From NCBI GenBank assembly GCA_021154885.1, contig JAJKHS010000064.1, forward strand, positions 1 to 42,601: a DNA stretch of 42,601 nt. Reading direction: 5' to 3'. The translations under genes and the position numbers were made by a program. Under the pieces are notes generated by a model. It had not been told where the DNA came from and did no database searches. It saw only the letters and a list, made by a program, of their open reading frames with translations. Shown in pieces: positions 21,838 through 35,484 of this stretch (position 1 is its first letter; each line of letters begins with the position of its first letter). This stretch comes from Thermoanaerobaculum sp. (GTDB lineage: Bacteria > Acidobacteriota > Thermoanaerobaculia > Multivoradales > UBA5704).

Positions 21838-24800
21838 CTACCGCGCCACACCCGCGATGAAGGCCGGGTCGTTGGAGCCGGTGCTGACCACCTGGGCGGC
21901 GGCCAGGGCCTGGCCGCTCTTCACCACGATCTCGACGGTGAAGCCGTTGGCAACCCCTGCCTTCTTGAAGGGGTGCTGGGTCGGGGAGACCTGGCGGATC
22001 TGCCCGGCGCCGACCTTGATCCCCGGGACGGTACCGATCACGGCGCCGTCGAGGCCGCGGTAGACGACGTCGTACAGGCCCGCGGCGCCGCTCGGGTTGA
22101 AGATCCAGAACGTCGTCTTGTTGGCCCCGTCCTGGCGCAGGCCGACGAGGGCGACCTTCTTGGTGGTATCGGCCGCGTCGGCGTCGCTGAGCGCGATCAG
22201 CGACTGGCCGAAGCGCTTCACCGGATTGGTGTTGTCGTAGCTCTCACCCATGGCGATCGGGAAGACGCCGTTGGGCGAGGTGCTGGTCAGGGTGAGGACG
22301 CCCGTGCCGTTGCGCAGCCCGAACTGGGTGAACAGCGCGTTCTCCAGGCGTTCCGTCGAGCCGGGCGGCAGCGTGACCTGCGCCGCCTTGATCCCGGCCT
22401 TGTTGGTGACGCCGGTGAACGTCATGAGGGTCTGAACGGCCTGATCGCCCACGTTGGAGAGCAGCAGGTCGGTCTGCCAGTTGGAACGAGCGGCACCCAG
22501 GCCGGTGAACACCCCCAGCAGGTAAAGCCTGGAGGTCTTGTAGGAGCCGGCCTCGGTGAACGACGGGTCTCCCGTCGCCAGCCGGACGTCGGAGCCGAAG
22601 GGGAAGATCTGGGCCCCCGACACGTTCTTCACCTCGACCCGGTAGTCGTCGATGTTGTTGATGCCGAAGAGGTCGCGGATCTCCTGCACCTGGAACTGCC
22701 GCTGGTCATGGCCGGAGAGCGTCAGGTCGCCGGACTCCGTGATGAACCGGCCTGTCTTGTCATAGAACCGCAGGTGGTAGGTGGCCGGCTGATCGCTCGG
22801 GTTGCTGAAGCCGAAGCTGGACTGCCGGTCCGGGGTGTCGTTGAGGCCCACCAGGAACTGCGACGAGCCGTCCGGTGCGGAGCTGGCGGCGCTTCCCTGG
22901 CTGCCCAGCGGCGTGCCGGGGATGGTCAGGCCGAAGAGCTTGCCCTTCGCCTGCGTCTTGCTGTTGAACGAGGTGATGACCGGCGCGACGTTGTCGACGC
23001 CCACCACGACGTTGATGAAGCCCGCCACGTTCTCGACGTTGAACACCCTGCTCAGCACGTCGGGAGCGTAGAGCGTCGCGCCGGGCTGGAGCGTGGAGGT
23101 GGCCCGCGGCGGGTTGGTATCGGGAACGCCGCGCTTGCGGAACTCGAGGGTGACGTCCAGCGGCGTCGTCCCCGGGTTGTAGACGTACAGGTCGTTCGAC
23201 TGCACCAGCGGGCCGCGGCTCTGGGCGACCAGGGGGAGCAGCACCGTCTTGGTCCTGGGCGGGGGCGCCCCGGTGACCACGAAGCTGCGCGTCTTGGTGG
23301 CGGTGGCGGCGCCCTTGACCACCTTCAGGTTGACGTTGTAGTTGCCCGGCTGCGCCCAGGCGTGCGTCACCTGCCTGCCGCTGCCGGTGGTGCCGTCGCC
23401 GAAGTCCCAGGCGTAGCTCGTGGCGTCGGCGGCGCCGGCCGTCAGGGTGACCGTCTTGGCCGTCTGCGCCTGGCACTGGTCGATACCGAACTGGTTGGTG
23501 CACGTAACGTCGGGGGAGAAGTCCGCCGCCACCGGCGGCGGCGGGCCGACCACCACCGTCTTCGACGTCAGAGCCAGGCAGCTCACGGCGTTGCAGCCCG
23601 GCGGTGCGAAGGCCAGGACGACGTTGTAGGAGCCCTGCTGAGCATAGGCGTGGAGGACGACCTTGCCGAAGCTGTTGCCGCTGCCGTCGCCGAAGTCCCA
23701 GCCGGCGAGCGAGCCGGCCGGGATGTTGGTCGACGGGCTGGAATCGAAGGTCGCCGCCTCCCCCGCGCTCGGCGAAGCCGGCGAGACCGTGAACTGCGGC
23801 CCGCCATTGGGAGCGACCGTCACCGTCTTCGAGGCGGTGCCCAGGCAGCTCGCGTTGAGGCAGCCGGCCGGCGTGATCGTAAGCTGGACGCTGAAGCTCC
23901 CCACGCCGGTATAAACGTGGCTGGCGGTCGCCCCGGAGCCGGTGCCGCCGTCGCCGAAGCTCCAGCCGATGCTCGCGCCCGCCTGGATACCCGTGGACGG
24001 GCTGGAGTCGAAGCTCACCGTGTCGCCCACCTTCGGCGCGGCCGGCGAGACGTTGAACTGGACCTGCAGGGGGACGCCATTCGGGGCGACCGTCACGGTC
24101 TTCGCGACCGTGCCCAGGCAGCTCGTGTTGAGGCAGCCGGCCGGGGTGATCGAAAGCTGGACGGTGTAGCTGCTCGCACTGGCGAAGACGTGAGTGGCGG
24201 TCGCCCCGGAGGCGGAACCGCCGTCGCCGAAGCTCCAGCCGATGGTCGCGCCCACCGGGACGCCGGTGGACGGGCTGGAGTCGAAGCTCACCGTGTCGCC
24301 CACCTTCGGCGCGGCCGGAGAGAAGTTGAACAGAGCCTGCAGGGGACCGGTCGTGACGGTGCTGATGTTGATGCCCTGGCTCCCCAGGGCGCCGGCACAG
24401 CCGCTGTTGGTCGCCGACACCGTCTTCGCGCCGGTCGTCGACCAGGACACCGAGATGCTGCTGCCCGTCGAGCTGCCGGCGATGGTGCCGCCGTTCACGC
24501 TCCAGCCCCACCCGTTGCCGCTCGCCGTGCAGTTGCTGGCGGACGCGTTGAAGGTAACGGCCTGGTTCGGCTGCCCCGTGACCGGGCCGAAGACCGAGAT
24601 CGTCGGCGGCGGCGGTGGCGGACCGGACGAGTCGACGACGATCGCCACATGGACGGCCTCGTTGTGCTCGCTGGCCCCGCGCCGCACCCGCAGGCAGGGA
24701 TAGAAGGTGCCGGCGGCGTAGACGTGGGAGAGCACCGGCGCCGTATTCCCCGTGTCGGTGAAGTTGCAGGTCTGCGGGCTCGCATCGGCGTGGGTCCAGT

Positions 24801-32439: not shown

Positions 32440-33831
32440 ATGAACATGAAAAGGTCATCCTCCGCCCTCGTCCTGATCCTCCTGGCCGGCACTCTCGGCA
32501 CTCCCGCCTTTGCCCAGGATGGGACCGCTGCGCTCGGCACTGCTGGCGAGGTCTATCTCGCCAAGGTGGGAGCTTACAAGGACCTCTTCCCCAAGGGGCA
32601 TGACACGACCCCGGGCAATACGGTGCTGGCCATCGACCTCATCCAGCCGAGCGCGGCTCCGCAACGCCTGGTGGTGCCCTACACCACGGGAGCCGACGTC
32701 GAGAGCTCGGCGGCCGTGCTCTTCGAGGACGACTCGGACACTCTGTTCGTGGTCTGGGCGAGCCAGACCAATGCGCTGAGCTCCGTGCTGATGCTGGCCA
32801 GCTTCGATGGCACGTCGTGGGGACCGCCAATCCAGATCACCAGCAATCCATTCTCCTCGAAGACCTCGCCGCAGCTCGCGATCACCCGCGACTCCTTCTC
32901 GACCACGGACTCCGACGAGAACACGGCGACCCGGCACCGCACCATCATCCACGTCGTCTGGGAAGAGCAGACCGCGAGCGGCAACGCCGACGTCCTCTAC
33001 ACCCCCGTCATCCTCGAGGAAGGCACCTACCTCGGATGGGCTCCCGTCTACAACCTGAACGACATGGTGGGTAGAACGCCGTCCACTTCGAAGTTCGCTC
33101 CTCCGGACACCCTCGTCCAGTCACCAGTTCTACAACCAGGGCGCGATGCCCGAACCCTGGTCGTCGGCTTCGCCTCTGCTGAGACACGCACCCTCTCCGC
33201 AGTTGAAATCGACGTCCTTCCCGAGGAGCTTTCGCTTCTTGCCGCCGACGCCCGCGCCCATATCATCGACGTAGGCCGCAGCCTTTATCCCAACTACCTT
33301 CAGGTCTTGGCAGACAAGACCATGGCCGATATCATCTCTCGCGGCACCGCGTTCCACGATGACGTTATCCACTACATCGCGGGCCAGATCCACGACCTTG
33401 TCCTCGCCAGTAGAGGCACCGACCCCGCGGATCTGACGGCTCTCAGCGAGGATGCCCGTGCCCACATCATCGACGTAGGTGTTCGGCTCTCCGGTCGGGG
33501 CCTCCGGGACAAGAACGATACCGCCACCAAGGCAATGATCGAGAGCACCGTCAGTGTAAACCCTGCCACCGACCCGACGGCACCCTCTCACCTGATCCAC
33601 TTCCGAATCGCTTCGAACCGGCCCGCTCCGCAGATGGGCTCGACTGGAACCCAGCTCTTCCTGTCGGAGACGGGAGACGACGCGCTCGTCGCCTGGACGG
33701 ACACGGGCAAGATCCTCTACCGTCTCAGCCAGGATGCGGGTTGGAGCGATCAGCGCCAGATCAAGCTGTCGGACTCGCTGGACGCCGCCCACGCGTACAG
33801 CGTCCTCAAGCAGAAGGTCCGGAATCGCTAG
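32440..33831 (+). CDS. Secreted 463-aa protein, beta-propeller-like, in the XRE/TPR operon
   Basis: The ATG at 32440 gives MNMKRSSSALVLILLAGTLG and a signal cleavage near PAFA-Q (residue 26). An in-frame ATG at 32419 overlaps the TPR gene and is an alternative. The N-terminal part (about 30-215) has sialidase-like strand patterns (LFVVWASQTN, IHVVWEEQTASGNADVLY). Between residues about 260 and 360 a helical insert carries two copies of ARAHIIDVG 68 residues apart (nt 33247 and 33451). The end returns to propeller-like strands (DDALVAWTDTGKILYRLSQ). I do not recognise a family. Being the third gene of this operon, it may be the exported effector or signal-related protein controlled by the pair before it. 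That is inference. Confidence 0.65.
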   Translation: MNMKRSSSALVLILLAGTLGTPAFAQDGTAALGTAGEVYLAKVGAYKDLFPKGHDTTPGNTVLAIDLIQPSAAPQRLVVPYTTGADVESSAAVLFEDDSDTLFVVWASQTNALSSVLMLASFDGTSWGPPIQITSNPFSSKTSPQLAITRDSFSTTDSDENTATRHRTIIHVVWEEQTASGNADVLYTPVILEEGTYLGWAPVYNLNDMVGRTPSTSKFAPPDTLVQSPVLQPGRDARTLVVGFASAETRTLSAVEIDVLPEELSLLAADARAHIIDVGRSLYPNYLQVLADKTMADIISRGTAFHDDVIHYIAGQIHDLVLASRGTDPADLTALSEDARAHIIDVGVRLSGRGLRDKNDTATKAMIESTVSVNPATDPTAPSHLIHFRIASNRPAPQMGSTGTQLFLSETGDDALVAWTDTGKILYRLSQDAGWSDQRQIKLSDSLDAAHAYSVLKQKVRNR

Positions 33832-33912
33832 CAGTCAGTCTCAATGATCTTCAACGGCGCGTCGGCCGGGCGCGCCGCCCTGCCTTCCTCAAAGCGGCGT
33901 TCCCCGACCCGA

Positions 33913-34470
33913 GACGACGGTCCATCGTACGCGGCGCATTTCCATCGTCTCCATACGATGAACCGTTGTACGCGGACAACGAACCGTCGTATGCGGACGA
34001 CGGTCCATCGTACGCGGCGCATTTCCGTCGTCTCCATACGATGAACCGTTGTACGCGGGCAATGGACCGTTGTACGCGGACGACGGTCCATCGTACGCGG
34101 CGCATTTCCATCGTCTCCATACGATGAACCGTTGTACGCGGACAACGAACCGTCGTACGCGGACGACGGTCCATCGTACGCGGCGCATTTCCGTCGTCTC
34201 CATACGATGAACCGTTGTACGCGGACAACGGACCGCTGTACGCGGACGACGGCCCATCGTACGCGGCGCATTTCCATCGTCTCCATACGATGAACCGTTG
34301 TACGCGGACAACGGACCGTTGTATGCGGACGACGGTCCATCGTACGCGGCGCATTTCCGTCGTCTCCATGCAACGGACCGTCGTACGCGGACAATGAACC
34401 GTTGTACGCGGACGACGGACCGTCGCACGCGGCGCATTTCCACCGTCTCCAGACGACGAGCCGTCGGACA
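33913..34470. repeat. 83-bp tandem array, 7 copies, each made of three hairpins
   Basis: Copies begin at 33913, 33996, 34079, 34162, 34245, 34328 and 34411. The spacing is exactly 83 nt each time, and the last copy is partial. Each unit holds three inverted repeats with 6-nt loops: CGTTGT-N6-ACAACG, CCGTCGT-N6-ACGACGG and CATCGT-N6-ACGATG. The third element alternates between CATCGT and CGTCGT from unit to unit, so a 166-bp dimer is the likely copying unit. The array fills almost all of the 648-nt gap between the convergent secreted-protein gene (ends 33831) and GHMP kinase gene (ends 34480). There are no unique spacers and no cas genes. All three minus-strand frames are open, but 83 is not divisible by three. 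It is most likely a structured non-coding element or minisatellite. Confidence 0.9.
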
Positions 34471-34479
34471 CGTCCGGTA

Positions 34480-35484
34480 TTACTCAGGCGACCGGCTGAT
34501 CGCCAGCGGCGTGGCCACGGGCCGCGCCTTCAGGATCTCGCCGCCCGCCTTTTGGAGCGCGGCGGCGATCCCGCTCCGGCGCTCCGGTGGACAGAGGATA
34601 GCGAGGCTGCCGCCGCCGCCGGCGCCGCAGGCCTTGCCGCCCCAGGCGCCGTGGGCCGACGCCGCCTGGAGGAGGCCCTCCAGGACCGGCGTCGAGATCC
34701 CGTCCGCGAGCTGCCGGCGGTAGCTCCACTCGCGGCTCATCAGCTCGCCGACGCGGGCGAAATCGCCCGCCTCCAGGGCCGGGGTGAGCTCGGCCGTGGT
34801 CTCGGCGATCCCCGCGAAGAGCCCGACTATCATGGCCTCGCCGTCCAGCCGGCGCCGTACCACCTGCCAGTTGTTCCCCGCCGAGAAGTGACTCTGGCCG
34901 GAGTAGACCACCAGCAGGCTCGCGCCCAGACGCTCGAGGTCGACGGCGAGGGAGCGGACCCTCTCCCCTCCCGGCTCGGCGAGGATCTCGAGAGCTCCTC
35001 CCAAGAGGGCGGGATAATGATCCTGGAGCCCCGTGGGGAGACCCATCAGCCGGGCTTCGAGGTCCCGCGCCAGCGCCGCCAGCCGCTCCGGCCGGGAACG
35101 GGGACGGTCGAACGCCTCTTCGGCCGCGGCCAGGAAGGCCACCGTCAGGCCTGAGCTCGCGCCGAGCCCTCCCCCGCGCGGCGAGTCGCTGGCCAGCGAG
35201 ACCTCGAAGGGCGGCAGTTCCAGGGCGGAGGCGATCACTCCGATCAGGGACGTCTCTTGATGCCGCGCCAGCTCCGCCGCCGAGAGGGCCTCGGTCCGGC
35301 TCGCGCCCTGGCGGACGACGTAGCCGCCGGCCCCGGCCGCGGATAATGGGCGCAGCTCGACCGTGACGGCGAGGTCCACCGCCACGTTGACCGTCCGCGC
35401 GCCGGGATGGAGCAGGCCCAGAGGCCAGATGTCGAGGGTGCCGCCGCCGAAATCGACCCGGCACCAGGCCCTGACGACGACCAT
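34480..35484 (-). CDS. GHMP-family sugar kinase (HddA/fucokinase-like)
   Basis: A 334-aa small-molecule kinase of the GHMP superfamily. It opens MVVVRAWCRVDFGGGTLDIW, the substrate-side motif 1. The ATP-binding motif 2 is SPRGGGLGASSGL (101-113), and motif 3 near the C-terminus is KACGAGGGGSLAILC. The closest type known to me is the heptose-7-phosphate or fucose kinase group, which feeds GDP-sugar synthesis for surface glycans. This suits the nearby export cluster, but the exact sugar is not readable. The ATG at 35484 lies 14 nt after the M23 peptidase stop, so it is cotranscribed with it. Its stop codon sits about 10 nt from the 83-bp repeat array. Confidence 0.8.
   Translation of the reverse strand: MVVVRAWCRVDFGGGTLDIWPLGLLHPGARTVNVAVDLAVTVELRPLSAAGAGGYVVRQGASRTEALSAAELARHQETSLIGVIASALELPPFEVSLASDSPRGGGLGASSGLTVAFLAAAEEAFDRPRSRPERLAALARDLEARLMGLPTGLQDHYPALLGGALEILAEPGGERVRSLAVDLERLGASLLVVYSGQSHFSAGNNWQVVRRRLDGEAMIVGLFAGIAETTAELTPALEAGDFARVGELMSREWSYRRQLADGISTPVLEGLLQAASAHGAWGGKACGAGGGGSLAILCPPERRSGIAAALQKAGGEILKARPVATPLAISRSPE

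Follow-up and report, generated by a model that had tools for sequence, protein, structure and literature searches.

A genus-restricted family of intergenic tandem arrays with a 20/21-bp unit at gene ends in a Thermoanaerobaculum genome, possibly acting as helically phased DNA

The array of 83-bp repeats in the window (the whole stretch of 42,601 nucleotides that was analysed, contig JAJKHS010000064.1 of Thermoanaerobaculum sp.) is one locus of a dispersed, genus-restricted intergenic family, whose unit is 20/21 bp long and reads CRTYGT-MHSSDK-ACRAYG followed by a linker of 2-3 nt. The half-site letters and the pitch of two helical turns are conserved, and the base pairing from arm to arm is not. 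Since compensating mutations do not preserve the hairpins, it is probably as DNA that the arrays act, and not as folded RNA. Our preferred reading, a tentative one with somewhat less than an even chance, is that they are DNA in helical phase that probably binds protein and plays a part like that of REP/BIME elements at the ends of genes; hardly less likely is a neutral minisatellite biased towards 21 bp. We infer that the action would be at the DNA level, through phased binding or bending, in the role of a boundary. The coordinates of the features are given in Table 1.

Table 1. Array, sub-units and neighbouring genes in the window, and arrays of other sequence in the genome of the window (G000) and in a genome of the same family but another genus (G003).
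Feature	Position	Strand	Remarks
Left neighbour gene	32440..33831	+	No Pfam match; start looks like that of a secreted protein; array 81 bp past its stop
Tandem array of 83-bp composite unit	33913..34470	.	6.7 copies, ~27 sub-units of 20/21 bp; TRF, layout, lag identities
Sub-unit 1, copy 1	33922..33941	+	20-nt half-palindrome CCATCGTACGCGGCGCATTT, marker recurring every 83 bp; from the sequence
Sub-unit 2, copy 1	33943..33960	.	Perfect palindrome CATCGT-CTCCAT-ACGATG
Sub-unit 3, copy 1	33964..33981	.	Perfect palindrome CGTTGT-ACGCGG-ACAACG
Sub-unit 4, copy 1	33985..34002	.	Perfect palindrome CGTCGT-ATGCGG-ACGACG
Hairpins of copy 6	34358..34417	.	C4-A15 mismatch in 2 of 3
Right neighbour gene, GHMP-family kinase	34480..35484	-	Pfam GHMP_kinases_N/C and gene call; stop 9-15 bp past the array
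G003 arrays of other sequence	L190:8481-8805, L194:10103-10334, L205:17012-17224, L210:13902-14075		20/21-bp (or 42-bp) pitch
Further G003 arrays	L211:4362-4710, L213:10694-11138, L218:12135-12315, L222:17107-17246		20/21-bp (or 42-bp) pitch
G000 arrays of other sequence	L226:4877-5184, L231:13772-14084, L236:16319-16608, L252:19152-19384, L261:2411-2855		20/21-bp (or 42-bp) pitch

TRF placed a tandem array of period 83 at 33913-34464, with 6.7 copies, 91% matches and zero indels. The original prediction had described seven copies up to 34470 with starts 83 nt apart, and this was found, the spacing being exactly 83 and the seventh copy degenerate and incomplete. Pairwise identity of the six full copies is 88-99% (mean 93%), and identity at lag 166 (0.934) is slightly greater than at lag 83 (0.914). 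The prediction had overlooked that the 83-bp unit is a composite of four sub-units (20+21+21+21 bp), namely one half-palindrome plus three palindromes that follow the pattern CRTYGT-N6-ACRAYG, with a linker of 2-3 nt. In the whole genome the core of the half-palindrome, GTACGCGGCGCATTT, is matched exactly 29 times and with one mismatch 7 times, every one inside arrays, and there are 8 further matches with two mismatches; the reversed-pattern control gave 25 in all. The three stem types proposed for each unit are all present, but the description of three stem-loops per unit is only partly true, since among the 18 hairpins of copies 1-6 just 9 pair perfectly, another 6 depend on G-T wobbles and the remaining 3 contain mismatches. 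Folding energies lie far below those of dinucleotide shuffles for RNA on both strands (z of -7.9 on + and -8.4 on -) and for DNA on the + strand (z of -8.8), so the array folds beyond chance. No Rfam family matched the window at the gathering score, in agreement with the earlier statement that no family with this unit is known; a permissive Rfam search of 33000-35400 returned two sub-threshold matches, one of them a miRNA model over the array with 24.9 of 95 bits. Elsewhere in the window, positions 23802-24345 hold two tandem copies of a 273-bp unit (86% matches, TRF), probably a duplicated protein domain, as the unit length is a multiple of three.

A DNA search found related arrays on several other contigs of the genome of the window, which belongs to a soil bacterium (G000; 8.2 Mb, 161 contigs). 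It holds 12 CRTYGT arrays, on the window contig (C64) and on C132, C161, C77, C72, C10, C56, C160, C144, C41, C154 and C116. Three more arrays (C118, C57 and C20) have a variant unit and extended flanks common to each other; they are inside the 15-locus counts and outside the 12-array counts given below, and are absent among the matches listed by the two-unit model. At L062:8060-8480, L069:520-930 and L070:7200-7610 there are arrays of a GATGCGGCATCG-rich variant unit whose flanks are 84-93% identical, as if a larger segment had been copied along with the array. The higher-order periods of other arrays in the genome (62, 83, 104, 124, 145, 166 etc.) are sums of 20 and 21. For the 20-base form of the unit, all zero-mismatch matches listed fall inside arrays; for the 18-base form a few of the matches listed are outside (C5, C42 and C47), and since a chance control was of similar size there is no sign of scattered single copies beyond chance. 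The 600-bp flanks of the arrays have no common ends, and what they share is limited to two groups of paralogous flanks, a 59-bp edge common to L067 and L071, and one 39-bp match. The arrays are noncoding, with a tandem unit between 10 and 100 bp, several loci and a copy number that changes between relatives, and thus come within the definition of multilocus minisatellites. This brings in the strongest rival of our reading, in which a replication or recombination peculiarity of the clade duplicates about two helical turns, slippage and unequal exchange enlarge the arrays and make their copies alike, and the resulting neutral or selfish minisatellites, which have no function, survive after stop codons, where the harm is least. 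It would account for the near-identical 83-bp copies and for an identity that is higher within arrays (0.71) than between them (0.65), and we consider it a serious possibility, though one that falls short of an even chance.

The original prediction also held that the stems are kept by compensatory mutation, and this was not supported. In 222 units from 15 loci, the variable pairs gave odds ratios of 1.33 for R2-Y17 (p=0.37) and 0.62 for Y4-R15 (p=0.12), and pairing across the linker to the next unit gave 0.87 and 1.0. In an alignment of 69 two-unit sequences (from 81 picked, at most six per locus, out of 126 distinct), 88.2% of the cells pair as against 88.8% after shuffling, with 456 of 500 shuffles at least as high, and the linker register on the same alignment likewise showed no covariation. 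No stem pair rises above shuffles in the 175 distinct units taken from the 12 main arrays; pair 2-17 has an odds ratio of 0.87 (array-bootstrap interval 0.26-1.72), and pair 4-15 falls below expectation, with Watson-Crick pairs in 40% where 48.5% would be expected (odds ratio 0.45; 95% interval 0.17-0.84 by array bootstrap), as if perfect palindromes were avoided at positions 4 and 15. Compensatory hairpins were rejected on these three tests. The matched changes that had been noticed reflect a weak, non-significant trend in the window alone (19 units, p=0.12 and 0.17), and a caution follows, as a matched pair of changes in a palindromic tandem repeat mimicked covariation that a larger sample removed. 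The central pairs 8-11 and 9-10 have an excess of Watson-Crick pairing (2 and 9 of 1000 shuffles reach the observed value), which we read as array dialects (ACGCGG, CCGCGT), yet it is still a result against a wholly unpaired reading. As a whole, the earlier interpretation stands on the homologous arrays, the convergent gap and the lack of an Rfam family, and falls on the compensatory mutation.

Over 233 units, selected at <=2 mismatches, the consensus is C-R-T-Y-G-T-M-H-S-S-D-K-A-C-R-A-Y-G, which is its own reverse complement class by class. Because these units were preselected by the mismatch filter, a position-only set was made of 42 units (35 distinct) lying 21 bp from an anchor on each side, with no sequence condition. 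In this set C1 is kept in 40 of 42 units, T3 in 42, G5 in 41, T6 in 37, A13 in 30, C14 in 42, A16 in 35 and G18 in 39, while variation at positions 2, 4 and 15 is confined to A/G or C/T, and the same holds for position 17 apart from 2 exceptions. Symmetry without covariation would be the trace expected of independent half-sites of a symmetric DNA-binding protein. In the arm CpGs of 203 units, which carry the same mismatch filter as the 233-unit consensus, the variable base is A at position 2 in 53 units, T at position 4 in 109, A at position 15 in 78 and T at position 17 in 61, whereas changes of the steady base number 5 (T at position 1), 3 (A at position 5), 5 (T at position 14) and 7 (A at position 18). 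Such one-sided variation is not what simple CpG decay would leave, as this would change both bases, and it is not what the neutral minisatellite predicts; the position-only set shows the same. The four variable arm positions are all CpG transitions, as they would be if the R/Y degeneracy were a scar of site-specific cytosine methylation and deamination and not of selection, but with one base per CpG varying, that account needs an enzyme methylating one strand per site in a palindromic pattern, and we rate it as very unlikely. Of the 189 unit spacings in the 12 arrays, 188 can be written as sums of 20 and 21, and a single break of this rule, in units that differ at 29-35% of positions, also speaks against neutral drift of the repeats. 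The variable positions of the unit have no three-base rhythm. That the array is part of a protein-coding repeat might be thought from several frames that are stop-free across it and from 21 being divisible by three; since 83 and 20 are not multiples of three, the rhythm is lacking and the gene calls leave the array outside genes, the chance of this is negligible.

As had been predicted, the array in the window fills the gap between two convergent genes (Table 1). A stop codon lies <=100 bp from the array edge in 11 of the 12 CRTYGT arrays, with edges set by eye; the exception is the L060 array, situated 60 bp upstream of an RNase E/G gene. Both neighbours are resolved for nine arrays, seven of them convergent (window, L057, L058, L059, L067, L068 and L071) and two co-directional (L061 and L066). 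This makes 7 of 9 array gaps convergent; among the remaining 159 pairs of adjacent genes in the 18 loci, three of them G002 loci, 16 are convergent (p=1e-5). The count includes hand changes from ORF lists, by which the left genes of L071 and L061 were added and the left neighbour of L067 was brought nearer, and with automatic gene calls alone 6 of 9 array gaps are convergent (p=2e-4). L060 was set aside from the gap count (divergent by automatic calls, with a gene 3 kb away), as were L055 and L056. A Pfam search of the genes adjoining the arrays showed no common function. The location after stop codons and between convergent genes is the placement of REP/BIME elements. BIMEs bind gyrase, IHF or DNA polymerase I. 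Against the phased-DNA reading, neutral insertions would also be best tolerated after stop codons. A family of 120-aa proteins (no Pfam match in three copies tested) has 20 gene copies in the genome, of which three flank CRTYGT arrays (L056:1964-2326, L058:8987-9340 and L067:8842-9240) and a fourth (L091) adjoins another 20-bp array at L091:1968-2223; of the other 16 loci, 13 are without arm-like hexamer density and L092, L098 and L101 are just at the cut-off. As the C161 and C72 flanks are 79.5% identical over 508 bp, the three arrays beside this gene are in part due to duplication of the gene together with the array edge, and we did not retain a link between the arrays and this family.

The homologous arrays expected in related genomes were found in the same genus, besides those of the own genome. 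The two other same-genus genomes examined both have them, G002 at three places and G001 at one place together with a short decayed one (by eye). The two-unit sequence model (E up to 0.001), run over the class with stricter filters as >40 genomes were covered, matched 4 of 148 genomes, namely the three of the genus and G105, which is the only one with a match among the 145 class genomes outside the genus; the G105 stretch looks by eye like a coding repeat and was rejected as a member. A DNA search of 59 genomes had matches in G000 and G002 only, and an exact-pattern scan of a named genome collection with a 23-base stretch had none. Of the named relatives of the flanking kinase, the closest two are from MAGs with the labels Acidobacteria and Thermoanaerobaculia, and the next are mostly labelled Acidobacteria, Thermoanaerobaculia or Acidobacteriota, with one labelled Deltaproteobacteria. 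At the syntenic place in G001 (L114), the ortholog of the left neighbour is followed by a gap of ~100 bp and the convergent 3′ end of the GHMP kinase gene, with no array; this gap has a terminator-like site on the + strand (L114:2892-2923), whereas the terminator scan of the window found none in 33700-34600. The array in the window sits where the corresponding gap of a same-genus relative carries a terminator-like hairpin. A second kinase gene in G001, beside a peptidase gene (L111), has no array in the 186 bp up to the contig end. In G002 (L115) the same two neighbours are convergent and the gap is filled by other sequence without an array.

Other positions are shared or patchy. One gene in G001 and G002 is followed by an array and then, just downstream, by the tmRNA gene, whose prediction in G002 overlaps the array edge; the G000 ortholog is followed by the tmRNA gene directly, without an array. 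The tmRNA genes, with tag ANDNFALAA, are at L143:2076-2425 (G000, C85), L082:809-1164 (G001) and L065:8483-8875 (G002). Upstream of an MglA-like gene there is a long array in G002 and a short one in G001 (by eye), and none was found in G000. Two array positions are therefore common to G001 and G002, one of them by eye. An array after tsaD is present in G002 and absent in G000, G001 and G003. Between G001 and G002 the tmRNA-side array is 81% identical while its flanks are 98% and 93% identical, with units gained and lost and with 41 transitions to 25 transversions. Such rapid turnover, and presence or absence between close relatives, would suit neutral minisatellites; the same motif at unrelated loci and in two further genomes would not. 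With the window array absent at the syntenic places in G001 and G002, the tsaD array patchy and the shared array diverged to 81%, there is no sign of an indispensable site. The G001 and G002 arrays are mostly of 20-nt units, CGTCGYANSSGGAG..., with the first arm kept and the second not (24 units, for which the first arm was part of the search criterion).

An RNA element, that is, a 3′-end hairpin array that terminates transcription or shields mRNA ends, would agree with the fold energies on both strands and with the placement after stop codons, and such roles are hypothesised for REPs in the available part of PMC3733652. We find it improbable, as the stems do not covary and pairing is even avoided at one pair, the terminator scan of 33700-34600 was negative, and the second arms are largely lost in the 20-nt units of G001 and G002. 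Also, the L060 array and those before the tmRNA and MglA-like genes are upstream of genes. Sponge RNAs of the CsrB/RsmZ type have tandem hairpins, with the CsrA motif GGA in six-nucleotide loops. The arrays are like them in the tandem hairpins, some with GGA in a six-nucleotide loop (AAGGAT in some units of L067, L068 and L071), and several arrays have nearly one GGA per unit on one strand (for example, with ~20 units each, L064, 19 on + and 6 on -; L063, 18 on - and 4 on +). The favoured strand differs between arrays, however, the pattern of GGA in most hairpin loops of a single strand is not seen, and covariation is lacking. In the ~27 units of the window GGA occurs 17 times on + and 19 times on -, and ARGGA is absent from both strands. 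A sponge for a CsrA-type RNA-binding protein was rejected on these strand counts and is left with a minimal probability.

In the phased-DNA reading, units spaced ~20.7 bp apart would bring the same half-sites to the same face of the helix, unit after unit, and therefore a putative, probably dimeric DNA-binding protein, or phased DNA bending itself, could build an extended nucleoprotein or curved segment. Situated after stop codons and mostly between convergent genes, the segment would most likely be a REP/BIME-like boundary at which converging transcription is halted or kept apart and its supercoils are absorbed. This reading draws on the symmetric degenerate consensus without covariation, the 188 of 189 spacings, the stop-codon and convergent placement, the two array positions common to G001 and G002, the terminator-like site in the G001 gap with none in that of the window, and arrays of the same pitch and other sequence in the own genome and the sister genus (see below). 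Against it stand the 20-nt units of G001 and G002 without the second arm and the central pairs 8-11 and 9-10 above shuffles.

REPs, as described in the available text of PMC3733652, are intergenic palindromes of 20-40 bp present in large numbers, for the most part downstream of stop codons and between genes that are convergent or unidirectional, and repeats of the CGTC type have no dedicated transposase. The CGTC-tagged REP in this account has an unpaired CGTC tag, a stem of 8-9 bp, a loop of 4-5 nt and a CCA-like tail, and occurs as dispersed singletons and HH dimers, head-tail clusters being negligible. To the extent of that account, our arrays are like REPs (CGTC- and GTAG-tagged) and BIMEs in palindromes, copy number and gene-end placement; they differ in that CGTC/CGTY is inside the pairing arm, the arms are 6-7 nt with a 6-nt centre, and the units run head-to-tail at a fixed pitch of 20/21 bp. 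Moreover, unlike the REP/BIME stem, which is maintained, the stems here do not covary. The genome has 12 Y1_Tnp matches, three of them strong, and no CRTYGT array was present at the 8 of 12 loci examined; at these eight loci no Y1-type transposase gene is flanked by the repeat, and on that sample a RAYT-mobilised REP was rejected. We would call the arrays REP-like in placement, not a REP. Multilocus minisatellites of bacteria, e.g. inside a MITE of Porphyromonas gingivalis in the portion of PMC4596501 available, are similar in having short-unit tandem arrays at several loci, whereas here several unrelated sequences share one pitch and the 600-bp flanks lack common ends. CRISPR arrays and TIGR arrays, the latter as far as the accessible part of PMC12045711 describes them, have a like regular tandem layout; the units here have no unique spacers in the layouts examined, unlike those of CRISPR. 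No published description of such arrays was found among the literature matches listed, judged by titles and the beginnings of abstracts in a collection with few subscription journals.

Arrays of other sequence with the same pitch were found in contig starts scanned in G000 (696 kb) and in G003 (621 kb), with a cut of >=140 bp and a best lag below 50 bp at >=50% identity. All 11 arrays of G003 and 4 of 6 of G000 have a lag of 20/21 bp, the other two G000 lags being 42 and 15. No CRTYGT array was detected by model R1 in the G000 sample, where its one match had E 0.027, nor in G003. The G003 arrays group partly by eye (L194/L205/L210/L211 and L213/L218), and so are not all independent. These arrays are mostly outside gene calls: of the 15 with a 20/21-bp lag, 13 overlap no gene call (8 of which are within 100 bp of a stop codon), L206 is coding and L211 overlaps a weak call; L261 overlaps a weak gene call as well, and L252 could be coding by eye. 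In the control from two other families of the order (326 kb), the passing arrays have lags of 42/28, 15 and 10, and in the control from named relatives (107 kb) a fourth array, just short of the cut, has a lag of 33/30. The contrast in pitch gives p=0.0088 with three controls, 0.0025 with four and 0.018 with one array per sequence group, but only p=0.046 when a lag of 42 bp is accepted as conforming in samples and controls alike, the control sample being small and coding status having been checked for the G000 and G003 arrays alone. Palindromes are not general in this wider class, since only 1 of 14 of the 21-bp arrays of other sequence is significantly palindromic (L194, p=0.003). The several sequences with one pitch also fit the neutral minisatellite. 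If, on the other hand, the task is common to arrays of unrelated sequence, no single sequence-specific protein can account for the whole set. A wider possibility, which we regard as doubtful, is that this bacterial family carries, genome-wide, intergenic DNA elements that form a class by their pitch and not by their sequence. In it, 20-21-bp arrays of several unrelated sequences at gene ends would make up boundaries of phased nucleoprotein or curved DNA by which converging transcription is absorbed or blocked, the CRTYGT arrays speaking one dialect. Bacteria would then have a class of elements in which helical phasing itself is what selection acts on. Selection of the pitch would make the arrays natural, testable material on what gene-end repeats of the REP/BIME type do, and on whether helical phasing of DNA sites is by itself enough for a transcriptional or topological boundary in bacteria. 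Should the arrays be neutral, the noncoding repeats sampled are still nearly all two-turn units, which would point to an unusual duplication mechanism in the clade. The 15-bp array of G000 overlaps a gene call with gene-like codon usage. At L237:15596-15871 (G000, C13) a short gene call has 15-bp repeats that code for Lys/Ala/Thr-rich repeats, and its predicted product resembles, by eye, histone H1-like bacterial DNA-binding proteins.
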